From: Rubritalea profundi
Lineage (GTDB): Bacteria > Verrucomicrobiota > Verrucomicrobiia > Verrucomicrobiales > Akkermansiaceae
DNA length: 62,058 nucleotides
Reading direction: 5' to 3'
NCBI RefSeq assembly: GCF_002954445.1
Contig: NZ_MQWA01000001.1
Coordinates: 1,116,732-1,178,789 of the forward strand
Below are positions 21,735-47,387 of the stretch, piece after piece (the first letter of the stretch is position 1; each line of letters opens with the position of its first letter). The translations under genes were made by a program, and so were the position numbers. The notes under the pieces were generated by a model, which worked only from the letters and a program-made list of their open reading frames with translations, had not been told where the DNA came from and searched no databases.

Positions 21735-21810
21735 TGGTGGAGCATAACGGAATCGAACCGTTGACCTTCTGCATGCCATGCAGACGCTCTACCAATTGAG
21801 CTAATGCCCC
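21735..21810 (-). tRNA. tRNA-Ala (anticodon GGC)
   Basis: 76 bases on the minus strand with a full cloverleaf. The acceptor is GGGGCAT paired with ATGCTCC, the D arm is GCTC/GAGC, and the anticodon stem TCTGC/GCAGA encloses the loop ATGGCAT, so the anticodon is GGC. The T arm contains GGTTCGATTCC. The discriminator A is followed by an encoded CCA. Confidence 0.97.
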
Positions 21811-32202: not shown

Positions 32203-32996
32203 CCTCACCCACATCTCAAGACAGCTCCACTGATCCAGCATTGATCAACATCGATGACCTTGGTTTCAGCTATAATCAGGGGAAGACAGAAACCATCCAA
32301 GGAGTTTCACTCCACTGCCCAGAAAAACAGGTGACCGCCTTTATTGGGCCCTCAGGCTGTGGTAAATCCACCCTGCTGCGCTGTATCAACCGGATGAACG
32401 ACCTGGTCGAGACATCTAAAATCACGCGTGGATCCATCAACATCATGGGACAGGATATCAATGCGCCTGATGTTGATGCCATCGAACTGCGCAAGCAAGT
32501 CGGCATGGTGTTCCAGAAATACAATCCATTCCCAAAATCCATTTACGAGAATGTCGCCTATGGTTTACGCATCCAAGGTATCAAAAATAAAAGCACCCTA
32601 GATGAAGCCGTCGAGCGAGCTCTCAAAGGTGCCGCTCTCTGGGATGAAGTTAAAGACCGCCTTAAGGACTCAGCCCTCGGACTTTCTGGAGGGCAGCAAC
32701 AACGACTTTGTATTGCTCGCACCACAGCTGTTAGCCCTAAAGTTATCTTGATGGACGAACCCTGTTCCGCGCTCGATCCGATTGCTACAGCAAAAGTCGA
32801 AGAGCTCATTTCTGAACTAAGACGCGATTTCACCATCGTCATCGTGACTCACTCGATGCAGCAAGCTAGCCGCATCTCAGACAACACAGCATTCTTCTAC
32901 CTCGGTGAACTCGTTGAATACGGTGACACTAACAAGATATTCTCCAATCCTTCAGTCAAACAAACCGAAGACTACATTTCTGGCCGATTCGGCTAA
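32196..32996 (+). CDS. pstB: Phosphate ABC transporter ATPase
   Basis: 266 residues. Walker A is [20 protein letters not shown] (from about residue 52); the family-typical [20 protein letters not shown], signature [19 protein letters not shown], Walker [22 protein letters not shown] and switch [14 protein letters not shown] are all present. It energises PstCA and is thought to signal phosphate status to PhoR through PhoU. Confidence 0.97.
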
Positions 32997-33029
32997 ACCA
33001 CATTATTCACACTAACAACTTATCACATT

Positions 33030-33713
33030 ATGCACACTGGCGGACACATCCTCAGCGAATTTGATTCAGCTCTCAAGGCATTCAAAGAAAAGACCATCAA
33101 CATCGGTTGTCTTGCGCAACAAAACTTAGAAGGCTCGCTCCAAGGACTGTTCGATCGCAACACCGAACTCTGCAATAAAGTCATCGCAGACGACGAAGAC
33201 GTAGACCAACTAGAGATCTCAATCGACGACGATGGCTTCATTATTATGTCAAAATACCGTCCCTTCGCCAGTGACTTGCGAGTGGTGGTGGCATCGATGA
33301 AAATCACCAACGTCATCGAGCGCATCTCTGACCACGCAGTCAGCATCGCGAAACGCAGCCGTAAACTCATACGTAGCCCCGAGCTACCAGAAGTCTCACT
33401 AATAGAACCCATCTTTAAGCACGCTAACAGCATGCTAACTGATGCGCTCACCGCATACTCAGACGGCAATCAAGATTTGGCTCTCTCAGTAATCAGCGCT
33501 GATGTAGAGCTCAACAAACTTCACAAGAAAGCAACAAAGCAACTCACCAAATGTCTCGAAGGTGAAGCCGCAGCCCATAAGTCCTACCTTCATTTAGTCT
33601 TCATTTCTCGCTGGCTTGAACGCGTCGGCGACCTCGCAGTCAACATCGCGGAAGACGTCGTCTACATGGAAACCGCCACCGACATCCGCCACGGCGGTGA
33701 ACTCCCAGAGTAA
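33030..33713 (+). CDS. phoU: Phosphate signalling complex protein PhoU
   Basis: 227 residues, two three-helix PhoU repeats. Metal-binding EDVDQLE-type motifs are visible (ADDEDVDQLEISIDD, and later AEDVVYMETA), with YRPFASDLRVVVASMKITNVIERISDHA in repeat one and FISRWLERVGDLAVNIAEDV in repeat two. It represses the Pho response when phosphate is plentiful, working with PstB and PhoR. It is the last gene of the phosphate block; the putative left attachment site of the integrated element lies about 130 bases downstream. Confidence 0.95.
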   Translation: MHTGGHILSEFDSALKAFKEKTINIGCLAQQNLEGSLQGLFDRNTELCNKVIADDEDVDQLEISIDDDGFIIMSKYRPFASDLRVVVASMKITNVIERISDHAVSIAKRSRKLIRSPELPEVSLIEPIFKHANSMLTDALTAYSDGNQDLALSVISADVELNKLHKKATKQLTKCLEGEAAAHKSYLHLVFISRWLERVGDLAVNIAEDVVYMETATDIRHGGELPE

Positions 33714-33842
33714 AGACCAACTGCCTTCTTATAAAGAATCTTTTCGTGGATTCCACAGGTTACTCAATCTGTGCGGTTCATTAGAAGAAGGGTTCTAGCT
33801 TCCAAGCTAGGGATTGGCGCTCCGAGCGGTCAAGCTAGCCGG

Positions 33843-33854
33843 ACGTTTCGGATA
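33843..33854. repeat. Putative left attachment site core
   Basis: The 12-bp core ACGTTTCGGATA lies in the intergenic region after phoU. Just outside it are a small palindrome (CTAGCTTCCAAGCTAG, 33796-33811) and a second CAAGCTAG copy, which could be integrase-binding arms. The whole 33714-33976 gap carries no gene. Confidence 0.55.
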
Positions 33855-33976
33855 GACGCACGACACCCCCTGAAGCGCCTTTATCTATAAAGAAAAAAAC
33901 TTTCAAGAAATGCACGCGCACGCTTTCGGCAAGTTATTTTCTTGCCCTATTCCCCTTTTGTGACTACGTTTTCGCC

Positions 33977-35194
33977 ATGAACACCTTGAAAAAAGCAGTC
34001 TACCACAAGGTCGTGGGCGGAAAAGATGCTGGCAAGTATCGAATCAGCTATTCGATTTTATGCCCTGAAAGTGGGAGAGCTAAGCGCAGGAAGATGATAA
34101 GAGCCACAGAGAAGGAAGCAAAGAAAATCACAGCCAAGGCAAATCGAAGCCTTGCGGATAATGGGAGCAAGTGGGACGTAGCCCCCGACGACGTGCTAGG
34201 CTTGCGCTTGTTTCACAGTTTGCTTGAGTCTGGCGCGATAGAGAGCGGAACCACTCTAGCCCATGTGGTCAATTCATATACTCATGTGGCGATAGCAAAA
34301 GCTAACAAGGTCAACAATCAAGAAGCCATCGACGAGTTTATGCTATCCCTTGAAAAGCGGACAGGCACGCGCCACGTCTCCACGATCCGCGGCGCTCTTG
34401 CTAGGTGGGCTAAATTTAAACCCTCAAACTCTCAGTTGGAGATAGGCAAGCTCTCGATAGGCAAGACAACGCGAGCGCATGCCGAGGAGTTCCTCGATTT
34501 GATAAAAGTCCCCATTACGCGGAATGCTGCCCTAACACGCACAAGCTCCCTGTACTCTTGGCTAATATCCTCAAAAGGAGGCGAGAGGATTTTAGAGAGC
34601 GATAACCCCTACAAAGCCATAGAGCACGTAAGGATCGAACACACGCGCCCCCAGTCTCATTCGCCTGAGGATGTGGCTACGTTCTTAGGAGATGGATTCT
34701 TAAACATTCTCGATGCGATACCATTTGCCCTAGGCTTCGCGCTTGGGCTCCGCACGTCCGAGATAGAGAGATTAGATTGGTCAGACATTGAGCTTGGCGA
34801 AGATTGCGAAAGCAGCCTTGTACGTGTGTCAGGAAAGACGGGCTATCGAGCCGTCCCGATTAACGAAATGGCGTTCTCTTTTATTGAGCTTGTCCCCGCG
34901 GAAAATCGCATCGGCAAAATTACAGAATATCGAATCGAAAACGCGCGCAATAAGGCGACCGCGAGAAGCGGGGTCGCGATTCTTAACAACGGCATGAGAA
35001 AGACTTGCATCACCTACAGCGCCGCGCTGAATGGGATTGAAGCCACGGCAACCGCCTGTGGCAATAGCCCGAGCGTCATCCGTGCACATTATGACGGGCT
35101 AGCCACTAAAGCCCTGAGCAAGGAGTATTTCAGCTATCGCGCGCCCGCGACGTATAAGCAAAACCTGAGCCTGTTTGACATCCACGGAATCTAG
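33977..35194 (+). CDS. Tyrosine recombinase (site-specific integrase)
   Basis: 405 residues. The N-terminal half is basic with a core-binding helical domain (about 85-200). The catalytic domain shows Arg259 in LGLRTSEIERLDW, a Lys in SGKTGYRAVPI, Arg341 in NNGMRKTCIT (the usual His of HxxR is Asn) and the nucleophile Tyr372 in RAHYDGLA. The Asn substitution suggests a divergent but complete catalytic set. Position next to the left repeat and inward orientation fit an element integrase. It would cut and rejoin DNA at the 12-bp core. Confidence 0.9.
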   Translation: MNTLKKAVYHKVVGGKDAGKYRISYSILCPESGRAKRRKMIRATEKEAKKITAKANRSLADNGSKWDVAPDDVLGLRLFHSLLESGAIESGTTLAHVVNSYTHVAIAKANKVNNQEAIDEFMLSLEKRTGTRHVSTIRGALARWAKFKPSNSQLEIGKLSIGKTTRAHAEEFLDLIKVPITRNAALTRTSSLYSWLISSKGGERILESDNPYKAIEHVRIEHTRPQSHSPEDVATFLGDGFLNILDAIPFALGFALGLRTSEIERLDWSDIELGEDCESSLVRVSGKTGYRAVPINEMAFSFIELVPAENRIGKITEYRIENARNKATARSGVAILNNGMRKTCITYSAALNGIEATATACGNSPSVIRAHYDGLATKALSKEYFSYRAPATYKQNLSLFDIHGI

Positions 35195-35245
35195 CTTTGT
35201 AAGCTCCCAATCTTGCCAGATTCGGTTGAAATCTTCTCTTTGGTA

Positions 35246-35539
35246 ATGGATAAAACGAATTTGAATAAGAAGGTCACAACAATAACTCTCAGTGTGGCAA
35301 TCACACTTGCGGCGGCCATTGGCAGCTTACACCACGACAACCGCAAGTTTATGCAAGGTGGCTTGCATACAGTACGCGCCAAGATTTCAAAACTCGAAGC
35401 GGCAACAATGGACTACGAGAATGACCGCAAGGAATTGCGGGGCGACTTAGTAGACCTCACGAAGAAAGTAGCACGCCAGCAAGGGTTCATCGATGGTCAA
35501 ACAACTAGCAAACCTAAATCTAGCCTTTCAAAAAACTAG
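35246..35539 (+). CDS. Small membrane-anchored coiled-coil protein
   Basis: 97 residues from ATG 35246; the frame opens 11 codons earlier at 35213. One transmembrane segment (about residues 12-28, TITLSVAITLAAAIGSL) is followed by a coiled coil (ISKLEAATMDYENDRKELRGDLVDLTKKV). The layout resembles phage i-spanin or small lysis accessory proteins, but that is only a resemblance. It is followed after three bases by a tiny proline-rich frame. I do not recognise the family. Confidence 0.5.
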   Translation: MDKTNLNKKVTTITLSVAITLAAAIGSLHHDNRKFMQGGLHTVRAKISKLEAATMDYENDRKELRGDLVDLTKKVARQQGFIDGQTTSKPKSSLSKN

Positions 35540-35542
35540 ATC

Positions 35543-35671
35543 ATGCGCTTTCACTTCCCACCACTCGCCACGCCACCACTCGACACGCCCCCAGTTGACA
35601 CGCCGCTCGACACGCCGCTGGATTTCCCTTTGCCACTAGACGAGCCCGTGGAACCTATTCCTGAGCCTTAG
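35543..35671 (+). CDS. Tiny proline/aspartate-rich repeat peptide (candidate)
   Basis: 42 residues beginning MRFHFPPL, then repeated PPLDTP, PVDTP, PLDTP and PLDFP units, ending EPVEPIPEP. It starts three bases after the preceding stop and ends just before a strong terminator, so it would be the last frame of a short transcript. It is too short for certainty and could be a C-terminal extension reached by read-through, but the codon phase is coherent with the Pro/Asp repeat. Confidence 0.35.
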   Translation: MRFHFPPLATPPLDTPPVDTPLDTPLDFPLPLDEPVEPIPEP

Positions 35672-35689
35672 AAGCATTATAAGACACGA

Positions 35690-35717
35690 AAGCCCGCGAC
35701 TCTATCGCGGGCTTTTT
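35690..35717. terminator. Terminator between convergent small genes
   Basis: AGCCCGCGA and TCGCGGGCT around CTCTA, followed by T5. It serves the plus-strand small genes; the minus gene 35724-36218 ends just beside it. Confidence 0.88.
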
Positions 35718-35723
35718 TATGCC

Positions 35724-36218
35724 TTACTCTTGAGACTCTTTCAGGATCTGCAAATAGGGCGCGAGCGATCGCTTGAAGTTCTCCTTCTCTTCGACTGTCC
35801 ACGCGGTGACGGGTCGCTGTCTGAGTTTTTTCGTGAGCTCCTTGCTGGTTTTTGTCATAATCGTGCTCACGGTTTTCGATGGCTGAACCTTCGTGGCCAC
35901 GTTGCGGACGCTTTTGTCCAGTAGCCCAACGATAGAAAGCTGTCTTTTGTCAGATTTTAGGGCCCGCCGCTTGGATATGCGATGTAAACACATATGGTCT
36001 TTTACCTCTTCGCCGCTCATGATGCCCCTCAGATCGTGGCAAATCGTATGCTTGGCCTTTCTTGAATAAGTTTCCGTGAGCGCAGCAGTCTCCAGCTTGC
36101 TAGCTATTGCCTTGTCCATTGCGCGTCTAGCCCATGCTACGTCGTGCTCAGCTTTCGCGTGAGACGCCCTTATCGCTTGGATTAGATTCTCTCTTGATTC
36201 TGTGTGTTTATTTGCCAT
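35724..36218 (-). CDS. Hypothetical basic helical protein of the element
   Basis: 164 residues, rich in Lys, Arg, Thr and Ser and predicted mostly helical; no transmembrane segment or signal peptide. The stretch RKAKHTICHDLRGIMSGEEVKDHMCLHRISKRRA contains Cys and His residues that might bind metal but form no known motif. The C-terminus (TVEEKENFKRSLAPYLQILKESQE) is amphipathic. I do not recognise a family. It follows the next gene on the same strand by ten bases, so the two are probably co-transcribed. Confidence 0.55.
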   Translation of the reverse strand: MANKHTESRENLIQAIRASHAKAEHDVAWARRAMDKAIASKLETAALTETYSRKAKHTICHDLRGIMSGEEVKDHMCLHRISKRRALKSDKRQLSIVGLLDKSVRNVATKVQPSKTVSTIMTKTSKELTKKLRQRPVTAWTVEEKENFKRSLAPYLQILKESQE

Positions 36219-36228
36219 AAATTTTTGA

Positions 36229-36834
36229 TTAGTTTGCTAGTGCTGTTTGAAGCTTGAGAACTGACGTTTCCACATTTGCTTGAATCGCTTGAGTTAACTC
36301 GCTCACTTCGAGGTTTATCAGCAAGCGGGGAAGGTCGAGATAAAGCGGGGCTAGATGCTTGCGAACTAATTGCATCGCCTGAGCCTCTTGCTTATCGACC
36401 ACGCCGCGGGGGACGAGCGAATCGAGCCTGGCTTGCGTGACCACAGATTTGTGCAGGCTCGAAATCTTCTTGGCGAGCATGTCAACCGTGTCGGGATCTG
36501 TCGTCTCTGAAAGCAAACTATTCAAGCGCTTGAGTTCCTGATCCATATCGATCTCGGGTAAGCCCTCAAGCTCTAGAGCCTCGAGCGCGTCCACTTGCTC
36601 GCGAGCTTCTCCCCTACTTGAGAACTCAGCCACAAATCCAAACCGCCACGATTTTGGCCTTCTGTTCGCTGGCTGATTCAAGATTTCCTCAGCTATTGCC
36701 TCATGGCTGTGGATGTTTACTCCGCGATTCAGCATAGCCCGGAGCGCGGTCACGCCGATGAAACTCCGCTTACTGATCGTCGCTAGTTGTTTGCCTGATA
36801 TTTTAACCGTGCTCGCCGTTTTACTCTTCGCCAT
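36229..36834 (-). CDS. Hypothetical protein of the element, possible DNA-binding N-terminus
   Basis: 201 residues from ATG 36834; the frame opens at 36900. The N-terminal basic part (AKSKTASTVKISGKQLATIS) leads into a helical region (RSFIGVTALRAMLNRGVNIHSHEAIAEEIL) that could hold a helix-turn-helix. The second half is acidic and helical. No known family could be assigned. It is divergent from the gene at 36954, and the about 120-base gap between them may hold both promoters. Confidence 0.55.
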   Translation of the reverse strand: MAKSKTASTVKISGKQLATISKRSFIGVTALRAMLNRGVNIHSHEAIAEEILNQPANRRPKSWRFGFVAEFSSRGEAREQVDALEALELEGLPEIDMDQELKRLNSLLSETTDPDTVDMLAKKISSLHKSVVTQARLDSLVPRGVVDKQEAQAMQLVRKHLAPLYLDLPRLLINLEVSELTQAIQANVETSVLKLQTALAN

Positions 36835-36953
36835 GCTAAAGGGTGGCTTTTCAATCATCGGGACGATTTGGGAAGAATCAGGACAAAAGCAGGGTTGCAT
36901 TCAGATCTTAAGTGACGGCTCTCGACTAACGCGAGCTACACCAAGAAAAGAAA

Positions 36954-37475
36954 ATGAATACAGACACAGAAAACGACAAGGCAATTTCACTCCCACTCGT
37001 GGGCAAGGCTGGCGGAACTTACACGCCCAAGGCTATGATTTTAGGACAAAGCACCATTATTATGGGTGACGATACCCCTTCATTTAAGTGTATCGCTATT
37101 AGCCGCGAAACTCCAATTTTAAAGAAAGCCTATAAGAAGCTCATCAGCTCAGTCGCCGCTTTTGATGAACACGATTGCGAGGAGTTCCTTTATGTGGAAT
37201 TTGCTCACGCAGCCACCCGCCGCAAGCGTCGCTTACAAGCGGCGCTAAATCAGCCACTGAGCCCCGAGGAGAAGGACGCCCGCGACGCGGCACGGATCAA
37301 GGCTGCTACCAAGCTGGCAAAATCTCAAGCGAAGGCCGAGGCTGATGCTAAGGCACGAAAAGACGCTGAATTTCAAGCGTCACCGGCAGGAATCAAACTC
37401 GCCGAGGCGCGGCGCGCAGCAAATCAGGTGGTTCAGCGCCGCAACGCGCGCATTGCATCCATCTGCAAAGCGTAA
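36954..37475 (+). CDS. Hypothetical protein with basic Ala-rich helical tail
   Basis: 173 residues. The N-terminal half is compact (LVGKAGGTYTPKAMILGQSTIIMGDDTPSF). The C-terminal half, from about residue 90, is a long Ala/Lys/Arg helix (KAATKLAKSQAKAEADAKARKDAE), such as is found in DNA- or RNA-binding tails or coiled coils. No family recognised. It is followed, in a different frame, by a second small gene at 37567. Confidence 0.5.
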   Translation: MNTDTENDKAISLPLVGKAGGTYTPKAMILGQSTIIMGDDTPSFKCIAISRETPILKKAYKKLISSVAAFDEHDCEEFLYVEFAHAATRRKRRLQAALNQPLSPEEKDARDAARIKAATKLAKSQAKAEADAKARKDAEFQASPAGIKLAEARRAANQVVQRRNARIASICKA

Positions 37476-37566
37476 AAATTTCTTGGCATGTGGCGGCGTG
37501 GACTTCGGTTCGCGCCGCTTATGCCAAAATCACACAAACACAAAACACATACAAATAGATAAAATT

Positions 37567-37932
37567 ATGTCCCTCGTTTTCACCGACAAAATAAGCACCG
37601 ATAAGATCGCAGAGCAAAAGCTCGAAATCGCCGCCTTAAAAGCTCAAATTGCAAATCCTGAGATTAAGAAACAGGACGAACCCAAACAGGACGAGCCCAC
37701 AGCTCCCGCGTCTAATCCCGTGGAAACTCCAAAGCCAGCGCCAAAGCAGGATGACAAGCCTAAGCCCGCGCCTGTCAGCACTCTCAGCCCCCTCGAGAGC
37801 AAGCGTGCCGAGCTTGAGACAGAAAAGAAAGCCTTGTCGTTGATGTATGCCAGCCTTTCAGCCGGCGCGAAACGAATTGAAGCACGCAAAGCGGTCAAGT
37901 TATTGGACTGCAAAATCAAAGCCCTCGGCTAG
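37567..37932 (+). CDS. Hypothetical protein with Pro/Lys-rich linker
   Basis: 121 residues from ATG 37567; the frame is open further upstream, where it overlaps the preceding gene out of phase. A short coiled coil (KIAEQKLEIAALKAQIA) is followed by a low-complexity linker of Asp, Glu, Pro and Lys (about residues 38-75), then a helical pair (KRAELETEKKALSLMYASLSAGAKRIEARKAVKLL). No family recognised. A strong terminator follows. Confidence 0.5.
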   Translation: MSLVFTDKISTDKIAEQKLEIAALKAQIANPEIKKQDEPKQDEPTAPASNPVETPKPAPKQDDKPKPAPVSTLSPLESKRAELETEKKALSLMYASLSAGAKRIEARKAVKLLDCKIKALG

Positions 37933-37950
37933 GAGCTAAACAACTTTCAC

Positions 37951-37984
37951 AAGCCTCACGCGACTTGATCGCGTGGGGCTTTTT
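37951..37984 (+). terminator. Terminator after the Pro/Lys-rich protein gene
   Basis: AGCCTCACGCGA and TCGCGTGGGGCT around CTTGA, followed by TTTT. Confidence 0.88.
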
Positions 37985-38054
37985 GCGTGTCGCGCGGCGC
38001 TCTCGTAGCTGATCCGCGATTGGTGCCGCGTCTTCCATGAGAAGGTTATGCAAA

Positions 38055-38597
38055 TTAGATTATGGATACGTAGCAAGCTCGTACCCCAAGACATAGAGAA
38101 ATGTAACACGCTACAACTAAGAAAATAATGGCACCTCGCAGGATACTCCCTCGAATATTCCAGTCCAGCTCATGAAAGGACAGTAAGGTCAAATATGTTA
38201 GTCCATAAGCGAGAGATGCTCCAATCAAAGCTCCTCCAAAATATGCTAATCCATCGGCTAAGCTAGCCTTTGTTTCAGAGTCGGCCTTAGTCCAAATAGA
38301 TCCTAAGAATGCCAACAATGCAGCTGATGATCCTCCAGCTACAATTACTAATGTTCTGAGTGCGTGAAATGCTGATTCATTTACTACACGTGCTGATTCT
38401 CGTAAATCGATAGAACCTTCACGCCACAGCTCCATATCATGCTCATATTGACCTCTTCGTGCTTCACTAGCATCATCATCATTGGTCTCAGTGTCTTTTA
38501 GATCACAGTAATCGACTACATGGTCTAAGGAAATAAATTTACGCCCTTGCTGCTTCAATAAGAGAAGCTCTCGTTTCAAATCTAAAAGGTTAGACAT
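38055..38597 (-). CDS. Four-helix membrane protein of the element
   Basis: 180 residues. A soluble, acidic N-terminal part (about 1-75, with LLDLKRELLLLKQQGRKFISLDHVV) is followed by about four transmembrane segments (77-97, 112-135, and two in 140-178). No motif identifies a family. It is the last of four minus-strand genes (BRCT protein, exported HNH protein, exported SHD1-like protein, this one) that may form the cargo unit of the element. Confidence 0.55.
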   Translation of the reverse strand: MSNLLDLKRELLLLKQQGRKFISLDHVVDYCDLKDTETNDDDASEARRGQYEHDMELWREGSIDLRESARVVNESAFHALRTLVIVAGGSSAALLAFLGSIWTKADSETKASLADGLAYFGGALIGASLAYGLTYLTLLSFHELDWNIRGSILRGAIIFLVVACYISLCLGVRACYVSII

Positions 38598-38791
38598 ATT
38601 TGTAATATTTTAAGCTAACGTAAAGCGCACCAATCGCTGATCTTCAGTGCACTTAGGTTTTGGGTTATGTTGAATATATTAAATGAACTCTGAATCCTTG
38701 AATCAAAAAATTAGTTAGAATCAACACATGGAAGCTCTAGTCTGACTTCGTATCTGACGTGGACTCATAAACAGCCCTATACCGTAAGGTC

Positions 38792-39490
38792 TTATTTTAT
38801 ATTCTCCGCGAGGCGATATGCTTGAATCGTCTTGCCTGAACCAGTAACGCTTTTATATTTATAGACTCCATCTTCAATAATCGTCGCATTGAAAATATCA
38901 CCGTCTATAACCTTGTAGTCACCTCTCAGTAGAATCCACTCGTCCTGATACATCTGGTAATTCATGTTTTTTGTCGGTTTTGAGTAAACTGTTTTAGTTC
39001 GACCGAAAGCATCTGTAACCAGTTTTGAGTTTCTGTTAGTGGATTCATACCCCCACCCAACTTTACACAATAAACCACCATCAGTGACTTGAATGACTTT
39101 TAGTCGGGCATTAACGCTTAATTTTTGTTCTCTGTCGGATGTTTCTTTTGCTAACTTGGCAGCCTTTTTTTTCTCATTAGCTTCTTGGTAGGCCTTGTGA
39201 TCAGCCTTGGCTTGCCTTTTTCTTGCTGCATTAACTTTCACTCTGTATTCCTTAGCTTCGTCATTCAGCTCAATACCTAGTTCCTTCTGTAGATCGGCCG
39301 ATAGATCCTCTACCTTGATATTACGGCCTCCATCTCGGTGCATGATAAAGATACTATCTGGTTTGACAGTCATCACTGTTACAGCGTGGTAAACATCCCC
39401 CTTCTCAGTGGTCAATGTTTCAAAAGTAGGTTTCTCAGCTGCTAAAAGAGAACAGCTACAAGCAATCAACAATAGGGAGATAAGTTTCAC
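38792..39490 (-). CDS. Exported protein with SHD1-like N-terminal domain
   Basis: 232 residues with a signal peptide (MKLISLLLIACSCSLLAA). The N-terminal domain (about 20-75) reads FETLTTEKGDVYHAVTVMTVKPDSIFIMHRDGG, then IKVEDLSADLQKEL, a pattern that recurs in exported Verrucomicrobiota proteins and resembles SHD1. A Lys/Ala-rich helix (about 85-125) leads to a beta-rich C-terminal domain. Its function is unknown. This taxon-typical domain shows that the element is adapted to verrucomicrobial hosts. Confidence 0.65.
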   Translation of the reverse strand: MKLISLLLIACSCSLLAAEKPTFETLTTEKGDVYHAVTVMTVKPDSIFIMHRDGGRNIKVEDLSADLQKELGIELNDEAKEYRVKVNAARKRQAKADHKAYQEANEKKKAAKLAKETSDREQKLSVNARLKVIQVTDGGLLCKVGWGYESTNRNSKLVTDAFGRTKTVYSKPTKNMNYQMYQDEWILLRGDYKVIDGDIFNATIIEDGVYKYKSVTGSGKTIQAYRLAENIK

Positions 39491-39547
39491 ACCTTATTGT
39501 TAGAGTATTGCTTTATAGCTGGCAAACATTTTCTAGGAAAACAAGAA

Positions 39548-40132
39548 TCACTTACCCTTCCATACCCAGCCCACTTCAGCCTTCAAAGCCTTCTCACGCC
39601 TCAAGGCTCCATTAGTCACCTTAGCCGATTTCTTGCGGTTCAGAGTACGTGGAAGCCAAGTTAAATTTGCCATCGAGTTCTCTAACTCAGGTGCTTTGCT
39701 GTATGGTATTAAGTGATCTATTTCGATCTTCTCGCCAGTATACTTCCCCTTGCTAACAATAGCGGCATTACCTTTTCTTAAAAGGACTAGATTGCTTGCG
39801 GTGTAGAGTCCGTAAGCTCTGCCAAGTCTGTATTGTGCTTCAAGGTTCAGCTTCTCAGTCAAAGGCGCGTAGACGTGGCGAGTGTTAGCGTATGGGGCGG
39901 AGTCGTGGCAATTGTAGAGTTCAGCAAGGAAAGCTTTAGGTTTGATGCCTTGAACCTCGTATTCGTGAATCCAGTACATCAACTTCTTGAACCTAGCATT
40001 ACCTGAGCGATTGCCTTTTTTGAGTGTGGCTAGTTTCTCTGGATTCGTTAGTGAGGATAAATCCTGATAGCTTGGAAGCTCGGAAGCCACCAAGGGCAGA
40101 ATGAGCGCGATGAGCAGGATGATTGATTTCAT
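39548..40132 (-). CDS. Exported HNH-type nuclease
   Basis: 194 residues. A signal peptide (MKSIILLIALILPLVAS) precedes a helical region and an HNH core: IEIDHLIPYSK (Asp139-His140), ENSMANLTWLP (Asn156) and LNRKKSAKV (Asn165). The His-Asn-Asn pattern suits HNH/DUF1524-like nucleases. Export of a nuclease from a mobile element is unusual: it may degrade incoming DNA in the periplasm, scavenge DNA, or act on competitors; all three are inference. A matching immunity protein is not evident. It lies 24 bases after the BRCT gene on the same strand. Confidence 0.7.
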   Translation of the reverse strand: MKSIILLIALILPLVASELPSYQDLSSLTNPEKLATLKKGNRSGNARFKKLMYWIHEYEVQGIKPKAFLAELYNCHDSAPYANTRHVYAPLTEKLNLEAQYRLGRAYGLYTASNLVLLRKGNAAIVSKGKYTGEKIEIDHLIPYSKAPELENSMANLTWLPRTLNRKKSAKVTNGALRREKALKAEVGWVWKGK

Positions 40133-40156
40133 GAACTTGAATCAGCTAGGCAACCC

Positions 40157-40753
40157 CTAGAGGGATTTAGACCAATGACCTTCACCAACGATAACGGGAG
40201 ATCCTTTCTTGACTCTAGTCAAAATGGCTTTCTCAATTTTCGATCCATAATTACCCTTTTTCCATGTGGGGTTCCCATTCTCACCGATCACCAAATAGTC
40301 CACAGATGAGGCTGACTTAGATTTTGAGGCAATCCCACCTTTGGATTCTATCGCAGCTTCACAATCGGTACGTTTACCAAAAGAGAATTTACCCGTGAAC
40401 ATGAAGGTTTTGCCCTCAAATTCTATGGCTGGCTCAGGCTTATCAAATGGGCTCTGATCTTCACCCATTTCATTTTGAATCTGCTGATCCTTCCAATTCT
40501 GGACTCCATCAGCCTCATTCCATTCATCAGGGATTTCTAGCGCATCCAGTTCTTTTGGGTCAAATGCTTTCAATTCAAGATCTTGTCCATAATCCCCAGT
40601 CAAATAAACGTACTTTTGCCAACGCTCCAAATATTCTGGAGTCGAGCTGATTTTTCCTATCATCAATCCAATCTGACCAACCCTTAAATTAGGCGGGTAT
40701 TGAATCTTGAAGAAGTTGAGAAACTTGAGCTGTCTATTTGAGGGAGTGTCCAT
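40157..40753 (-). CDS. BRCT-domain protein
   Basis: 198 residues. The N-terminal part (about 1-60: PSNRQLKFLNFFKIQYPPNL, then ERWQKYVYLTGDYG) is a helical domain met in verrucomicrobial proteins of DNA metabolism. The C-terminal BRCT domain (about 110-198) reads EFEGKTFMFTGKFSFGKR, AIESKGGIASKSKSASSVDYLVIG, then KKGNYGSKIEKAI, close to BRCT of NAD-dependent ligases. It probably binds DNA ends, nicks or phosphopeptides; no catalytic domain is present. It heads the four-gene minus-strand cargo unit. Confidence 0.75.
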   Translation of the reverse strand: MDTPSNRQLKFLNFFKIQYPPNLRVGQIGLMIGKISSTPEYLERWQKYVYLTGDYGQDLELKAFDPKELDALEIPDEWNEADGVQNWKDQQIQNEMGEDQSPFDKPEPAIEFEGKTFMFTGKFSFGKRTDCEAAIESKGGIASKSKSASSVDYLVIGENGNPTWKKGNYGSKIEKAILTRVKKGSPVIVGEGHWSKSL

Positions 40754-41383
40754 AATCCAAACATCTAGCAGATGTTTTCCTCGGTGTCACTCAATATGAC
40801 CTAATACACCGCTTGAGCCCGTGGAAGTCAGGAGAGAGGCCACAAAAGAAGACGCCAGCCGCTTGGCCGTTTGGGATAGCAGGCGGGCGCGGCGCGCGCG
40901 TTCGCTCGTAGCGCGCGTGCGGTCGTGGTGTGTCTTGAACTTGTCAGGAATAGCGCCCGCGCGCGCGTGCGCGATTGTAGCAAACCCTTGCGGCTAGTGT
41001 ATTGGCCACATTGTGAGGTTGCGCGTACTCGCCCCGAGGATCGCTCTCACGGGCTCGCGACTTGGCGCGGGTGTACTGGTGAGCTCCGAGGCGCTGGCGG
41101 GCGCTAATAGGTCGAGGAACGAATTTTCGAGACTTTCTCGATTTTTGACCAAAGCCTTCAGCACACTCACCATAGAGGGTACCCAAAGAGGTGTCCTTAC
41201 GGGGGGTATAAGTGCCTACACCTTAAGCACTTACGCGACATGCTCACTCGATGACTTGACCCGACTCGACTCACTCGCCTCGAAACGTGCGTGCCGATTT
41301 TATACAATTTTGTGCACCCGTGCCCGTGTTAGAAACGCACGACCCGTGACGTAAGACACACCCCCGCGCATTCACCTGGTGCC

Positions 41384-41711
41384 TTTCACGCCCTCATTCC
41401 TGACATGTAAAGGAAATTGAGTTTTCTTTACGTGTTGGCACTAACACACCTCCACGCCCTCATGCCGTAGGCCCTCATGCCCTCATGCCTATACCCTGAG
41501 CCCTGTGCTATAGACCTCCACGCCTCATGCCGTAGGCCCTCACGCCCTCACGCCTCATGCCCTCACGACCTCATGCCTTCTAGCTCTATAGCTCATGCTC
41601 CATGCCTCATGCCTCACGCCATCATGCTTCACGCCCTCATGCTTACACCTTCATGCTTCACGCCCTCATGCTTCACGCCCTATACCACGGCCCTCACGCT
41701 TACGCTGGCAG
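41384..41711. repeat. Degenerate C-rich tandem array (GCCCTCATGC and CACGCCCTCATGCTT types)
   Basis: Dozens of imperfect units around CCTCATGC or CCTCACGC, with C far above G on the plus strand. Spacing is irregular, so this is not a CRISPR. Strong strand asymmetry suggests single-strand structure or a replication-related role. Confidence 0.7.
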
Positions 41712-41994
41712 CCTATTGACTAGACCTGTCGATGAAAAGGGCTTTAGTAGCTATCATGACAACTAATCTCTTACAATCGTCCATATTCGCCCGTGAGCGC
41801 GTCGCAAGCGCTCGCCATTAGTATGGAGTCGCGAAATGCAATACAAGTCCGTGTCGCGTACCTCAGCCGGCAAGAGTCGAGTTCTACGCGTTTGCATACG
41901 TGCGGGTGTCGCTTGTAGGATCGCGTGCGTGCGTGTGTGTGCGATCGCGCGTGCCTTCATTGGTCACGATTCACGATGCATGATCTTGATACAG

Positions 41995-42036
41995 AAAAAG
42001 CGCTCACCCCCAAGTAACCAAACTGGGAGTGAGCGC
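41995..42036 (-). terminator. Terminator-like hairpin with no gene upstream
   Basis: GCGCTCACCCCCA (42000-42012) pairs with TGGGAGTGAGCGC (42024-42036) except one position. On the minus strand the hairpin is followed by T5. No minus-strand gene lies just upstream, so it may end a noncoding RNA or a long transcript. Confidence 0.6.
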
Positions 42037-42362
42037 CTAAACAAGATAAACAAACAATAATAACAAGAAGATGAAACTTATTATAATAAAGAACACGATT
42101 CAACTCGAATAAAGCCCGATACCGTGATTTCGACATCGGGATTCCTTAGTCACAGTTTGAGACGAGACGCGCGGCGCTTGGCTATTAGCTATTGGCGCGC
42201 GGCGGGTGTCAGCTATTAGCTATTGGCTATTGGCTACAGATAGTAGGCTCAAACAGATAGCAGTGGTATCTGTTTACTTAGTTATCGAGCGATTCATGAC
42301 CAAACCGCGCGGCAAGAGCGCGAATGGTCGTTTCTGTTAGCCACTTAGGGCTTTTGAAGTAT

Positions 42363-42742
42363 ATGGAATAAGGGCGCGGGCGTTTCGTTGTTAGAAATGA
42401 AAGGAACGAGCGGCGCGGGATTATGGAACACCTAGGCTATATGCCACAAGGGTTTATTCGTTTCATTCTCTAACATTCCATAGTTTCCATAAATTCTTAT
42501 GGAAAGATTGGAGTATACACAGTAAGGGTTAGAGTCTAGTTTCCATACTTTCTATAATATATAGATAGATATATATATATGAGATTACTCTCCCCTCTCT
42601 CCCTCTCTTGGGGTGTGTTCTCTCCCTTTATAAGGAAATTCATGGAATTATGGAATTATCGCTCTAGCCCTTACGTGGTATGCTCTAAACCTTCCATAAG
42701 TGATTATGGAAAGCATGGAAAGTATGGAAAACGCTCATGGAA
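42363..42742. repeat. Iteron-like ATGGAA/TTCCAT hexamer cluster
   Basis: Nine ATGGAA (starts 42363, 42423, 42499, 42642, 42650, 42706, 42715, 42724, 42737) and four TTCCAT (42476, 42485, 42541, 42692) in 380 bases; well under one would be expected by chance. Many are preceded by TT or TA. An AT-rich tract of alternating TA and GATA (42547-42580) sits in the middle. This is typical of replication-initiator binding sites. Confidence 0.7.
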
Positions 42743-42816
42743 AACGGCAAAACTCACGAATTGCACAGCGTGGCCTCCATTTTTGCCACACGCGCGGCAA
42801 TGCGCTGATGGCTAGG

Positions 42817-42939
42817 TTACCACGCGAGCGCGGCGCTGATGGCTGGTTACCACGCGGCAAGGCACAGCAAGCGCGCGCGGCGTGCGGCGTGGGGGTTAGT
42901 TTACCACGTAAAGCGGGGCAGGAAGGCTGGTTTACCACG
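42817..42939. repeat. TTACCACG repeats
   Basis: Four copies at 42817, 42847, 42901 and 42932. The first two are within a longer repeat (GATGGCT, then GGTTACCACGCG). Confidence 0.65.
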
Positions 42940-42965
42940 TTAAATAGTTAAAACCCGCTAAAAAA

Positions 42966-43311
42966 TAGGGATATATAGGGAAAAATAGGGACGAGTCCCT
43001 ACACGCCTTTTCTTATACCACGTATGGTCTGTAGAAGATTATGTAGATAGAATAGATATATAGTATAGTATATTATTATTTATTTATTCATTGTGACCTA
43101 TGGGAGTGAGCATTTTTTCTCGCAAGTTTCGTGAATGATATTTCAGAAACCTGTGATCATTTTTTCAATCCCGTGAATAATATTTTTTACCCCCATTTAG
43201 AGGGAAAGTCCCTATTTCCCTACACAATCCCCTGTAGCCCATACCCCGTATAAAGAAAGTAGTGTAGGGAACGTCCCTACACATCCCTATTTTTCCCTAT
43301 TTTCTTCCCTA
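42966..43311. repeat. Helically phased TAGGGA/TCCCTA iterons in two clusters
   Basis: Cluster one starts at 42966, 42976, 42986 and 42996 (exactly 10-bp steps). A pair follows at 43209 and 43217. Cluster two starts at 43265, 43274, 43284, 43294 and 43306. Cluster two contains the perfect palindrome GTGTAGGGA-ACG-TCCCTACAC (43262-43282). A TA-rich tract (43037-43090) lies between the clusters. Confidence 0.72.
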
Positions 43312-43430
43312 TTTTTGACTATTTTCTGTCATTCTGTGGTAAATTGGCCACCGCAACCCGTCACCAGGTCACCACACACACACGCGCGCGCGACTTGACA
43401 TGCAACGCTCAGCCTATCGATTCCCCCAAA

Positions 43431-43482
43431 GCTAGTCACCACGCGCGCAAGGGGCTTGCGGCTAGTCACCACGCGCGCAAGG
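43431..43482. repeat. Tandem direct repeat GCTAGTCACCACGCGCGCAAGG
   Basis: Two exact 22-base copies at 43431-43452 and 43461-43482 (motif starts GCTAGTCACC, ends GCGCAAGG), 30 bases apart. Confidence 0.75.
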
Positions 43483-43667
43483 TGCTAGAAGGCTAGGATG
43501 TCTCAAACGCGCGCGCGCTCGATTATGTGGTCACCCAATTAAGCCACGCGCCGCTATTAGGTCAATAATGCCCCGAGGATCGCTCACACGGGCTCGCGGC
43601 CCGTCTCATGACTTCTCATGTGCGCGCGCCTCGCGCCTCGTCAGCACGCCTTGATGCTCATAGACGT

Positions 43668-43699
43668 GAAAAGCCCCGCACGTGTGAACGCGCGGGGCT
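43668..43699 (-). terminator. Terminator of the DUF3987-type gene
   Basis: On the minus strand AGCCCCGC pairs with GCGGGGCT, followed by TTTT. It lies 30 bases after the stop at 43729. Confidence 0.8.
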
Positions 43700-43728
43700 G
43701 GTGATTGGTGGTTAGTGTTAACCCGTGG

Positions 43729-45381
43729 TTATGCTGGCAAGCCGTGCGGCAATACATCGGGCTTGACTAAATAGTAGATGCCCTTAGGTAACCCATGTGT
43801 GTCCGCTTTCACTGACTGTATAAAGCCCTCGTCACATAGGGCCAGAACAGCCCCCTCTACAGCGTCCTTTCTCCTTGATAGTCCCTCAATAGCGCTGAAC
43901 GCGTAATTGGCCCGCGCAACTGCCTTGATCATTGACTCACTGAGCACCCCTTGAATTAATAGAGCTTTGCCTGTTTGTCGTTTCCAGCTGTTTATTGATG
44001 TAGTTTCTTTTTGGTCAATCGTGCGAACCAGTGCCTCCTTTAGTGCTTTGCTTTGCTTGGCAAGGCTTCCCCCGCCAATCTCGCCATTGTCAACTGATCT
44101 CGATAGTATCTTTGCCTGACCGTCAACCCATTTGAATGCCCACTCCATTTGCTCCAAAGTAATGATAGGCAATGTGGGGTTCTCAAGAATAGCGAGAAGT
44201 GAAGCGACTTTCTTACTTTTGAGCGTAACTCTTGTCCACGCGGCGCCGCGAGTTGTACCTTCCAAAGTTAGCTGTGCGTCAATTCCATCGTCCATCTTGT
44301 CTATAAAATCCTTAGCATCAGGGGAGAAGATCACGGATCTCGTGTTAGGCGCGCTAGTAGTTGGCCGCGTGATGACTTCTTGCGAGCCTTTTGGATCTTG
44401 CACATCTTCACTCGTGCCTGTGATGTCATAATAATCACTATGCGGGGGCTGGTTTCTAGTGTAACAGCATAAAGCCTCGGCTTCATCCCCTAGGCGACTC
44501 AACGACTCTAGGACTTTTACGGGTATTGGTAGCCGCCCGTTTTCATCTCTCCCTTTGAACTCGTCAAAAGCTTTGCGAGCTTTCGCGATCTCCGTAGCTG
44601 TGCCCACGGCTTCGCAGTACTTCAGGTTCTCGACTGCCTTGCTCATACTCATTGTGGAGGATTGAATTTTGCGGCCTTTCTCTTTTCTCTCGATCAGTAA
44701 GAGCCTAGAAACGAACCCGCCCGTGAGTGAGTCTTGAGAAAGTGAGTCATACATAATCTCACGCGTGCCCTCGCCGACAAGTGTCACACAAGGTGCACAA
44801 ATATCAGGCGCAATATTACCCTTATCAGCGCGCGCGGGCGCTCGTTTGATGTAGCTAGCGCTCGATTGTGAATAAAGCTCCAGTAGCTCGTCAATGATCT
44901 CCTTTTGCTTGCTCGTCTCGTTCGCCTGTGCTTTGGCTAGATATTTGTCAATCTCTGACTTCATGAAAGTGACCGAGCCAATACCGCGATCTGCTAAAGC
45001 GGTTGTGACTCCCTCTTTACTTGCTGGCATAGTTTGGCACATACGTCCAAGAAAGTTTGTCCTGTTGTTTTTGTCTATAGCCTCAAGAGTCCTAGAAATA
45101 TTCTTTGTGATGTCGTCTTTGCCTGCTCCCGAGTCACCAAGTACAGCCATATACAGGTTGCAGCTCGTGTCTTGGTCGAAATGGTACGAGCGCGACGCGA
45201 TACTAGAAGCCACGCCTAGCATTGCAGCTATGCTAAACTCCACATCTGAGTAACGTGCGTTAGCTGTGAAGTTTCGCGCCAATGCCCCAGCCACGCCGCT
45301 CGGATAACCCTCTTTTTGGCTAGCTATTAGCTCGGTCAATCCTTTGTGAATATCAATCTTTTCATTCTCTGTATTTCTCAT
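43729..45381 (-). CDS. DUF3987-type P-loop replication ATPase
   Basis: 550 residues. A P-loop LGDSGAGKDD (residues 81-90) follows NLYMAV, as in the DUF3987 helicase/primase-associated ATPases found in plasmids and phages. The final residue of the usual GKS/GKT is Asp, a notable change. SVTFMKSEIDKYL, then IAPDICAPCVTLVGEGTREIMYDSL and GGFVSRLLLIERKEKGR match the later family segments. No primase active site is visible. It is the best candidate for the replication protein acting on the adjacent repeat-rich region, which lies directly after its stop. Confidence 0.72.
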   Translation of the reverse strand: MRNTENEKIDIHKGLTELIASQKEGYPSGVAGALARNFTANARYSDVEFSIAAMLGVASSIASRSYHFDQDTSCNLYMAVLGDSGAGKDDITKNISRTLEAIDKNNRTNFLGRMCQTMPASKEGVTTALADRGIGSVTFMKSEIDKYLAKAQANETSKQKEIIDELLELYSQSSASYIKRAPARADKGNIAPDICAPCVTLVGEGTREIMYDSLSQDSLTGGFVSRLLLIERKEKGRKIQSSTMSMSKAVENLKYCEAVGTATEIAKARKAFDEFKGRDENGRLPIPVKVLESLSRLGDEAEALCCYTRNQPPHSDYYDITGTSEDVQDPKGSQEVITRPTTSAPNTRSVIFSPDAKDFIDKMDDGIDAQLTLEGTTRGAAWTRVTLKSKKVASLLAILENPTLPIITLEQMEWAFKWVDGQAKILSRSVDNGEIGGGSLAKQSKALKEALVRTIDQKETTSINSWKRQTGKALLIQGVLSESMIKAVARANYAFSAIEGLSRRKDAVEGAVLALCDEGFIQSVKADTHGLPKGIYYLVKPDVLPHGLPA

Positions 45382-45493
45382 CTTATTTTGTGTGTTTCGA
45401 TTTTAACTTAGTATTGGCTTTGTCGCCTTGCTGAGTCCCGTGGTCAGTGGTTCGGTCTGTTTATGGTCGGTTGTGTTGCGTATTATCAAAAAT

Positions 45494-45817
45494 TTATTGA
45501 AAGCTTTTAAGCTCTGGGATTAGCGCTTTATTGAACGCATCAGCATGAAAAGGGTGGTTCGTTGGCGCTTCCTTAAGAGCTGGCAACCCGAAAATCTCTA
45601 GCAGATTCGAGAGGCCCGAGACGCGATGTTTGAACTTGATTGAGCCGCCACCTAAAAAATTAACCTCCACACCTCCTGAGAAGCTAACCGAGCGAACGGC
45701 TTCAAGATTGATAGAGTGGACACCCACGCGTAAAAGCCCCGTTGGAGCATCTTTCGTTATTGCCGCTTTTGTTGGAGCTGCTTTTGTCGTTGTGCCTGTT
45801 GTGTTGTAGTTTTTCAT
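45494..45817 (-). CDS. Small hypothetical protein of the element
   Basis: 107 residues. A Thr/Ala/Lys-rich N-terminus (about 1-25) precedes a compact beta-rich segment (LLRVGVHSINLEAVRSVSFSGGVEVNFLGGG) and a helical end. No family recognised. It is upstream of the DUF3987-type gene by 112 bases on the same strand, so it could be co-transcribed and take part in replication control. Confidence 0.5.
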   Translation of the reverse strand: MKNYNTTGTTTKAAPTKAAITKDAPTGLLRVGVHSINLEAVRSVSFSGGVEVNFLGGGSIKFKHRVSGLSNLLEIFGLPALKEAPTNHPFHADAFNKALIPELKSFQ

Positions 45818-46148
45818 ATCGTATTTGTTATTTTTCGTTATTTGCTTTATTTGCTTTACATTGAGTGAGGTGCTGCTGTGTAAACGTCGCTCTCTACTAA
45901 CGGGTGACTTTTTTTAGATCTCTTCACGTTTTACTACTCTAGCGTGTTACATTTTGCGCCAGAAAACTCACTAACCCCTTGTCCTATTGGTTTTCATTTT
46001 GCTAAAACGAGGAAAAAACTTCCAAATTCCACGGGGTGAAAAGAGCTAAATCAAACGGCTGTTTGTCGGGATCTTGAGAGATCACACGCTAAATCATCTT
46101 GCGGGTTAGCCCTCTGTAGGTTGTCATAAATCGCCAAAGTGATTAGCC
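45818..46148. other. Gene-free spacer (331 bases)
   Basis: No frame with coherent coding character. It is AT-richer than its neighbours and probably holds the promoter for the replication genes. No specific site is recognised. Confidence 0.4.
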
Positions 46149-46430
46149 CTAGCGCTTTGTTTTCTTAGCATACGAGAAAGCGGTCTTGCGATCCTCGAAG
46201 ACTTTAGCGCCGTATCGGGCCGCGCGCGCTCGCGTCAGAATCAAGACCTTGCCACGCTTGACCGCGTAAACCTCGCCGTCTCTTAGTACGGGCACGATAT
46301 AGCGGATAGAGCGCTTGCCCGTGTAGGGATTCTTTGCACCGCTCGCCTCGGGCTGGCAAGTCGCTGAACGAGCTGACACCAAGGGCGCGAGCGTGGTCAA
46401 GATAGCTAGGATGGGTAAAATTTTCTTCAT
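46149..46430 (-). CDS. Small exported basic protein
   Basis: 93 residues with a signal peptide (MKKILPILAILTTLAPLVSA). The mature part is basic, with YIVPVLRDGEVYAVKRGKVLIL and a Lys/Arg-rich end. An overlapping frame on the same strand (46204-46488) has no signal peptide and is not preferred. Function unknown. Confidence 0.5.
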   Translation of the reverse strand: MKKILPILAILTTLAPLVSARSATCQPEASGAKNPYTGKRSIRYIVPVLRDGEVYAVKRGKVLILTRARAARYGAKVFEDRKTAFSYAKKTKR

Positions 46431-46491
46431 ATTTAAGGCGCAAAATCAACTCTTTCTTACTTGTTTTCGCTAGAATTGGAGCAATCAAGCC

Positions 46492-46524
46492 AAAAAAAAG
46501 AGCCCCGAGCTAAACTCGGGACTC
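46492..46524 (-). terminator. Terminator after the excisionase-like gene
   Basis: On the minus strand GAGTCCCGAG and CTCGGGGCTC pair (one mismatch), followed by T8. It lies 34 bases after the gene stop. Confidence 0.88.
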
Positions 46525-46557
46525 CATGAACCCACACAAATATAAGAGGTTTGAAAT

Positions 46558-46755
46558 CTATTTAGAGTTTGCGCCGAGCGCTTCGAGAACAGCCTTTAAG
46601 TCATAGCGGCGGGACTTACCCAGCGTTACAAAAGGGATTCGATTGCTGAGACTCTCTTGCGAGACCACGCGGGGGCAAATACCGAGCCGCTTCGCTAACT
46701 CGATACGAGAGAGGAGAACTGGTTGTTCGTTTGTGATGTTTTTTTGAAGTTCCAT
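46558..46755 (-). CDS. Excisionase-like MerR-type HTH protein
   Basis: 65 residues. LLSRIELAKRLGICPRVVSQESLSNRIPFVTLGKSRRYDLKAV (described over residues 14-56) is the HTH_17 pattern of phage and plasmid excisionases: a winged helix-turn-helix with the RxY-D wing. It is close to the right end of the element, where it could steer the integrase toward excision or act as a repressor. Confidence 0.72.
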   Translation of the reverse strand: MELQKNITNEQPVLLSRIELAKRLGICPRVVSQESLSNRIPFVTLGKSRRYDLKAVLEALGANSK

Positions 46756-47387
46756 ATACTCTCTGCTGAGGATTCAACTCTTTTCCGCTTAATCCCTCCC
46801 GCATCGCGCTTTTTTCTATAATGAATGACAGCGCGCCCGTGAACGATAAACCTAGGCCGTGTTCTCGTTCCTTTCCGCGTTAGCCCCGCGTCACCATAAG
46901 AGCCACTAGCGCGCCCGTGAGCGCGTCGCCCGCCTCCCGTGACAACTTGCCAGCAAACTGGATCGCGAGCTCTATTTCCGTATTTTAGCCAACTTAATCG
47001 GCACGGTTACGGCACGCTAGATCCCTTATTGCCGCCTTATTTGATAAATCCCGAGAGTAGAGAGGACTCCGCAAAATGGCGAGAAAGGCGCTTTAACTGC
47101 TTAATCTAAAAGGATTTAAAGCCAGTCAACAATAAAAGCCCCGTGACGTGTCGCACGTTTCGGATAAACTTCCCTACTTTTCAATTCGTCGAATGACTGC
47201 AACTATTGACTGCAACTAGTTCATCGCGCTGGTCACTTAAAAAGCTTTCGTCCTTTTTCGCATTTTCGCGGTTGGAATTTTCTTCAGAGTGCTGGTCTGG
47301 AAACTGAACTCAGCCCACTGAACACCTCCCCCACCCTAGAGTCAGCGTAGACTTTTCTTTACCTCTCTAACCAGAGCACTCAGTATT
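46756..47387. other. Gene-free right end of the element and upstream region of the TamB-like gene
   Basis: Contains CGCCCGTGAGCGCGTCGC (46912-46929), also found at 41788-41805, then the right attachment repeat (47155) and, outside the element, a tandem TGACTGCAACTA repeat (47194-47205 and 47207-47218). No gene seen. Confidence 0.55.
47155..47166. repeat. Putative right attachment site core
   Basis: Second copy of ACGTTTCGGATA in the same orientation as at 33843-33854. The chance of a 12-base match between two stretches of about 200 bases is roughly 0.2 per cent. Confidence 0.55.

Follow-up and report, generated by a model that had tools for sequence, protein, structure and literature searches.

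Helper-dependent mobile elements have been described from few bacterial groups. The passages of a review of hitchhiker elements considered here (PMC11389934) are consistent with this, and they expect that much diversity is still to be found. The closest described systems are the PICMI satellites of the Vibrionaceae. In the passages of PMC10803314 used here, these satellites average 6.7 kb, integration at fis is their hallmark, their helper phages are virulent, and in 21 of the 35 PICMI subfamilies a gene, iolg, overlaps int. A looser model in the same passages gathered 135 elements, 67 in Vibrionaceae and some outside, with complete PICMIs only in Vibrio. Here we describe an island in Rubritalea profundi (Akkermansiaceae, Verrucomicrobiota), found in a 62,058-nucleotide stretch of contig NZ_MQWA01000001.1 (positions 1,116,732 to 1,178,789; hereafter the window). 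It occupies window positions 33843 to 47154, that is, 13,312 bp plus a second copy of a short core, between phoU and tamB. The island has an integrase, a candidate AlpA/HTH_17-type regulator and DUF3987, the trio that those passages report for PICMIs (PMC10803314). We propose, at a probability of roughly 0.55, that it is a satellite-type hitchhiker island working like them, with an excision, a replication and a helper that we infer. Among the papers listed in searches on satellites, DUF3987 and Akkermansiaceae elements, no title or opening abstract describes a helper-dependent element from Verrucomicrobiota.

An initial annotation, made from the DNA letters, had proposed an integrative element here, with backbone genes outside it. 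Pfam agrees about the flanks, which are PhoU on one side and TamB and Omp85/POTRA on the other. PhoU was sought in 58 genomes, that of R. profundi included, and matched in 49; in the scan of genome contigs, Akkermansiaceae relatives reached at most 55% identity among the matches listed. A TamB match adjoins phoU in two of 29 short loci of other genomes, taken with about 1.5 kb on each side where the contig allowed. Nine relatives, selected from among the best PhoU matches, were examined over 15–19 kb. Two of them belong to the same genus (G010, PhoU 77% identical, and G006, 69%) and carry pst, phoU, tamB and Omp85 in one row with an empty phoU–tamB junction; the stretches read from the remaining seven contain no TamB match. 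Because these two congeneric genomes have only 158 bp (G010) and 117 bp (G006) between phoU and tamB, the 13.3-kb segment is, judged from this comparison, an insertion of foreign DNA. Its GC content is unremarkable (48.4% vs. 49.0%). Its GC skew is −0.053, whereas 46 overlapping slices of the backbone, each as long as the element, range from −0.142 to −0.176; we treat this break as no more than supportive, since gene direction contributes to skew. With empty junctions in two of nine relatives, symmetry in the joined ends, and integrase and helix-turn-helix (HTH) genes at opposite ends, the segment is almost certainly an integrated mobile element. It is a real element that probably moves, or did so in the past.

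The annotation had bounded the element by a 12-bp direct repeat, and the 12-mer ACGTTTCGGATA does stand at 33843–33854 (attL) and 47155–47166 (attR), both on the forward strand. At up to one mismatch it has two matches in the window; the shuffle mean is 0.17, and none of 100 shuffles holds two. In a stricter test, the longest direct repeat was sought between the phoU-to-int stretch (33714–33976) and the HTH-to-tamB stretch (46756–47387) under dinucleotide shuffling. Since 24 of 2000 shuffles reached 12 bp or more, about 0.012 for the repeat alone, the repeat by itself is suggestive, not conclusive, evidence of the boundary. It is the sole direct repeat of at least 9 bp between the two terminal stretches, which also share an inverted 10-mer for which no shuffle comparison was made.

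The usual core of a tyrosine recombinase consists of inverted arms round a short spacer. Joining the ends of the element gives attP as GTGTCGCACGTTT-CGGAT-AGACGCACGACAC, with 13-bp inverted arms complementary at 10 of 13 positions. Its left arm comes from the element's right end (47148–47160, forward strand) and its right arm from the left end (33854–33866, forward strand). Joining the chromosomal flanks gives attB as GGACGTTT-CGGAT-AAACTTCC, whose 8-bp arms at 33841–33848 and 47166–47173, again on the forward strand, pair at 7 of 8 positions (GGACGTTT against GGAAGTTT). The outer flanks were then shuffled with the core kept, and the same search was made over centres, spacers and arm lengths. 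Three of 1000 shuffles were as good as attP and 36 of 1000 as good as attB; for attL and attR, the junctions as they now stand, the counts are an unremarkable 146 and 260 of 1000. The optima of attP and attB share one centre and one spacer, CGGAT. Thus, both marks of tyrosine recombination, a direct repeat core and inverted arms round a short spacer, are found here, and we place the crossover in CGGAT because that arrangement is the usual one. The boundary very probably lies at the 12-mer.

Just inside the 12-mers, at opposite ends as the annotation had stated, lie the integrase gene and an HTH excisionase-like gene. The integrase gene (33977–35194, forward strand) begins 122 bp inside the left copy and encodes a 405-residue tyrosine integrase with R259, K287, N338xxR341, N363 and Y372. 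It matches phrog_1 at 1.7e-18, and PF00589 at 7.8e-4, below the cut-off. In an alignment with 29 family relatives, R259, R341 and Y372 are invariant, K287 is found in 29 of 30 sequences, and N338 and N363 in 27 of 30. We take these columns to be the catalytic positions, with N in place of the H of HxxR. The HTH gene (46558–46755, reverse strand), about 400 bp inside the right copy, encodes a 65-residue HTH_17 excisionase/AlpA-like protein with matches to PF12728 (5.9e-4, below the cut-off), phrog_66 (7.2e-4) and phrog_57 (3.6e-4). The last of these is labelled "terminase small subunit", and the match is taken as a reflection of the HTH fold.

The replication ATPase that the annotation had expected inside the element is a 550-residue DUF3987 helicase/primase-like protein (43729–45381, reverse strand), with matches to PF13148 (4.9e-11; 42.9 bits, cut-off 27) and phrog_3022 (3.5e-60). 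Residues 25–529 align to positions 357–778 of the 788 in phrog_3022, which is the C-terminal part of the profile; therefore, the protein is the helicase-like part only, without the N-terminal primase half. The tailed-phage primases of phrog_3022, such as those of Stenotrophomonas phage Salva and of Vibrio phages, are alike in this C-terminal part; unlike them, the window protein has no primase half, and the small island that encodes it carries no recognised structural genes. At 1e-20, phrog_3022 matches in six of 384 class genomes, that of R. profundi included, and in two of 14 controls, both archaeal. The protein finds 108 phage records at low identity (22–28% among the 20 listed) and five weak other matches in 387 phylum genomes, and no close relative was found in viral contigs or plasmids. 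Two of the verrucomicrobial matches lie among phage-type genes, and their proteins share just 24–25% identity with that of the window across about 210 residues. One is on G788:C82, a contig of 57.9 kb; of five proteins scanned there, three are the products of major head, portal and terminase genes. The phrog_3022 match is split over both contig ends, and the contig is probably the complete circular genome of a tailed phage in a verrucomicrobial assembly. In the other (G780, five proteins scanned), the match adjoins phage-type helicase, exonuclease, single-strand-binding and annealing genes.

A large noncoding repeat region had also been claimed, and about 3 kb (40754–43728) is indeed without convincing genes. 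Within it, adjoining the DUF3987 gene, is a zone of iteron-like repeats at 42362–43480, a candidate replication origin, with 10 copies of TTCCATA, 11 of TCCCTA and 8 of ACCACG. The motifs were picked after the sequence had been viewed; shuffle means are 0.25, 0.68 and 0.33, and none of 1000 shuffles reaches any of the observed counts. Without reference to chosen motifs, the most frequent 7-mer in the zone has 10 copies, against a maximum of 7 over 500 shuffles. The 48.7 kb of the window outside the element hold 3, 20 and 22 copies of the three motifs. It is reasonably likely that the DUF3987 gene and the repeats make up a replication module. Elsewhere in the same region, short degenerate repeats of the CTCAYGCC type, with no evident function, occupy 41385–41680, and a palindrome around ACATGTAAAGGAAA lies at 41395–41446. 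The R. profundi genome has one other copy of the palindrome (L075), at 87% identity, apparently, by eye, upstream of a Fic-like gene, and a captured operator is possible.

We propose that the tyrosine integrase acted on a CGGAT-centred core present both in attP, on the circular form, and in attB, on the chromosome, and that this recombination produced the 12-bp direct repeat. The HTH protein at the far end would probably be the excisionase or an AlpA-like switch. Replication of the excised circle would probably fall to the phage-type DUF3987 helicase, which would load at the adjacent iteron-like repeats. Because no capsid, large-terminase or relaxase gene is recognised, transfer to other cells would then require a helper, which would most likely be a tailed phage, as in PICMI satellites. 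The absence of capsid, packaging and conjugation genes, as first annotated, holds for the open reading frames (ORFs) scanned, namely 14 with Pfam and 10 each with PHROGs and NCBIfam, small and overlapping ORFs being left aside; among them, no convincing capsid, portal, large-terminase, relaxase or conjugation gene was found. With no recognised relaxase or structural genes, a phage-type helicase and a PICMI-like trio, a phage would be the likeliest helper, at a little under even odds, and a conjugative helper is doubtful.

The helper is conjugative in one alternative, in which the island is a mobilizable or integrating plasmid-like element whose DUF3987 protein serves as initiator or helicase at the iterons and whose oriT lies in the 3-kb noncoding region. 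Iteron-like repeats adjoining a replication gene, the large stretch without convincing genes at 40754–43728 and the absence of any recognised phage structural gene would all suit such an element. However, no relaxase or mobilisation family was found among the scanned ORFs, neither the integrase nor the DUF3987 protein has a plasmid match at 1e-5, and the DUF3987 protein is of the tailed-phage type, although two archaeal controls also match phrog_3022. We consider this origin unlikely.

It is also possible, at a similarly low level, that the element is a decayed island, a prophage remnant or satellite that once moved but is now simply inherited, along with its cargo and noncoding debris. The roughly 3 kb without convincing genes, the simple repeats at 41385–41680, the truncated integron cassette described below and the failure of the searches made to find another copy could be signs of such decay. 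The integrase, on the other hand, is open and keeps its conserved positions, the attP arms are still symmetric, and the DUF3987 and HTH reading frames are open. We regard it as improbable that the element is no longer mobile.

Several observations weigh against a satellite-type island with the boundaries and functions proposed. The attB symmetry, taken alone, is weak, and the HTH protein scores 20.5 bits against PF12728, where the cut-off is 27. The primase half is missing from the DUF3987 protein, and no CHC2 or Toprim match was found among the scanned ORFs, though several sister islands have one. A search with the whole element in its own genome, an assembly that is 95.8% complete, returned short repeats and no second copy. 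Ranked by E-value, the best other integrase shares 31% identity when 195 family genomes are searched, and 27% for 384 class genomes. Collections of viral and genome contigs, which may omit records of or near this genome, hold no close relative of the integrase, and tblastn at 1e-5 against phages and plasmids, with the same possible omissions, gave no match. With no second copy and no close integrase relative in these searches, there is no evidence of recent movement. Neither Phage_portal nor Terminase_6N matches in the genome of R. profundi, so there is no obvious resident tailed-phage helper, and any helper would need to arrive from outside, like the virulent phages that PICMIs use (PMC10803314).

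The empty junctions bear on the boundary as well. The annotation had called for an empty phoU–tamB junction with a single copy of the 12-mer. The empty junction is there in G010 and G006; both gaps have diverged and hold no match to the 12-mer at up to two mismatches. Were the element removed, phoU and tamB would lie 362 bp apart (383 bp with a later tamB start), compared with 117 and 158 bp in the relatives, and about 200 bp outside the 12-mers is not explained by this comparison. Since the gaps lack the 12-mer and are shorter than 362 bp, the empty site does not prove the boundary. That the insertion is real and ends elsewhere, with a chance 12-mer and part of those 200 bp also imported, would fit these gaps and the 24 of 2000 shuffles, but it is quite improbable, given that the arms share one centre in both joined sites and that the terminal stretches have no other direct repeat of at least 9 bp.

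What, then, is the integration target? The sole tRNA gene of the window sits at 21735, and we reject a tRNA target. The joined attB reads GGACGTTTCGGATAA, which as codons is Gly-Arg-Phe-Gly-stop, the terminus of PstB; attP reads Arg-Phe-Gly-stop. At up to three mismatches, the attB 15-mer matches at eight places in 159 kb from the nine relatives, seven of them the 3′ end of pstB; two of these relatives lack any match. The window's own pstB end (32982–32996) agrees with attB (33841–33855) at 12 of 15 bases, and that of relative G011 (L168) at 14 of 15. Two further three-mismatch matches lie in the window at 40865 and 58437. Because the pstB ends are homologous, the likeness counts as one coincidence, not seven. 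All nine relatives have phoU next to pstB with nothing inserted, which speaks against common use of a pstB site. It is tempting to propose a new family of Verrucomicrobiota phage satellites, replicated from iterons with a primase-less DUF3987 protein, whose integrase has the pstB 3′ end (TTCGGATAA) as its primary target, used a look-alike here one gene downstream, and which picks up integron cassettes; we hold this to be speculative and unlikely, and keep the pstB resemblance as a lead.

The short-repeat matches of the element in its own genome led to integron attC sites. Two half sites flank a 180-residue gene, by eye that of a membrane protein (38055–38597, reverse strand). The left half (37999–38057, reverse strand) is 95% identical to the copy at G000:C1:1850400 (8.5e-18) and 92% to one at 292439; in the right half (38605–38674, reverse strand), 38605–38671 is 87% identical to the copy at G000:C1:3007562 (5.7e-14). 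The genomic counterparts are sites of about 120 bp, nine complete ones aligning at 82% mean identity, and they are taken as attC sites. Three of the nine have an IntI gene that exceeds the TIGR02249 cut-off 2–3 kb away; a partial IntI match below it lies near two further sites. IntI exceeds the cut-off at two places in the R. profundi genome and in none of 14 controls. With attC beside the gene and IntI in the genome, 38055–38597 is a probable integron cassette gene. As only the gene-proximal halves remain in the element, each truncated, we read this gene as a host cassette, or a piece of an array, that the island would have caught.

The other genes are mostly without an assigned function, as the annotation anticipated; the scanned ORFs still to be named had no family over the cut-off, apart from an HNH_4 nuclease-like protein with a signal-peptide-like start by eye (39548–40132, reverse strand; PF13395, 8.2e-6, over the cut-off). 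Beside it, a LigA-type BRCT-domain protein (40157–40753, reverse strand) matches PF00533 at 0.0061, below the cut-off, and the LigA model at 1.9e-7 over residues 107–161, far below the whole-protein cut-off. On the forward strand, the ORF at 35213–35539 (no Pfam match over the cut-off) has, by eye, one hydrophobic stretch and a coiled-coil-like region, and 36954–37475 (173 residues; Pfam, PHROGs) is overlapped by a doubtful low-complexity ORF at 37345–37932 (ORF list, Pfam). On the reverse strand are ORFs at 35724–36218 (164 residues; Pfam, PHROGs) and 45494–45817 (PHROGs, Pfam), both with no assigned family, and two with signal-peptide-like starts by eye, 38792–39490 (Pfam, NCBIfam) and the small 46149–46430 (PHROGs, Pfam). 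A further reverse-strand ORF at 36229–36834, of 201 residues from its third Met and with no family match, is all-helical in a poor model (mean pLDDT 53). A small-terminase role was considered and rejected: neither protein families nor phages gave a match, the PDB offered nothing better than E 0.34, and the single-sequence model had that same pLDDT. No known RNA family was found at gathering scores in 33000–47500, nor any defence gene by PADLOC at 0.01 in 10 ORFs.

Islands of comparable make-up occur in the same family. DUF3987 (Pfam) is present at 1e-5 in at least 18 of 195 family genomes, at 20 places, a lower bound, as the same PF13148 genome search missed the window's own DUF3987 gene. Seventeen of the 20 stretches were fetched, three partial hits being left out, and in 12 of the 17 an HMM of the window integrase and its relatives detects an integrase at 1e-6 (L201, L202, L205–L211, L213, L214 and L216). 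The integrase gene lies upstream of DUF3987 on the same strand in 11 of the 12, L207 being the exception, and in L216 the two are more than 7 kb apart. In three of the 12 (L202, L205 and L206), the last 4 nt of int also belong to an overlapping ORF. HTH_17 was confirmed in three of five small island ORFs tested, and a CHC2 zinc finger was found in four of five larger ones, once below the cut-off. The 12 islands, L202, L205, L206 and L208 foremost, look PICMI-like, with an integrase and, in several, HTH_17, a CHC2/Toprim gene and DUF3987. In L210, from the same genus (G002), a DUF6088 and AbiEii pair lies between integrase and DUF3987 (5718–7372) and may be defence or toxin–antitoxin-type cargo.

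These sister islands resemble the phoU–tamB element in having integrases caught by one HMM, a DUF3987 gene and, in three of five tested, HTH_17. They differ in that their DUF3987 proteins have no phmmer match to the window's at 1e-3, that int is upstream on the same strand in 11 of 12, that several have a separate zinc-finger primase gene, and that one has an AbiE-type pair. Together, the element and its sister islands provide att sites, genes and genomes with which the spread of a PICMI-type strategy can be tested, and the attC-flanked gene suggests that such elements can come to carry a cassette from a host integron.

Compared with the PICMIs as the passages of PMC10803314 present them, the element is alike in its large noncoding regions, its lack of capsid genes and the direct repeat beside int. 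In contrast, its site is phoU–tamB and not fis, its host is verrucomicrobial (Akkermansiaceae) and not vibrionaceal, and at 13.3 kb it is about twice the PICMI average of 6.7 kb. Its int and DUF3987 genes are far apart and on opposite strands, and no gene overlaps int, as one does in many PICMIs (PMC10803314), the next forward ORF following after an 18-bp gap. Since the hallmark fis site is absent, the element is not a PICMI; it is an orphan of a known general kind, the helper-dependent integrative island.

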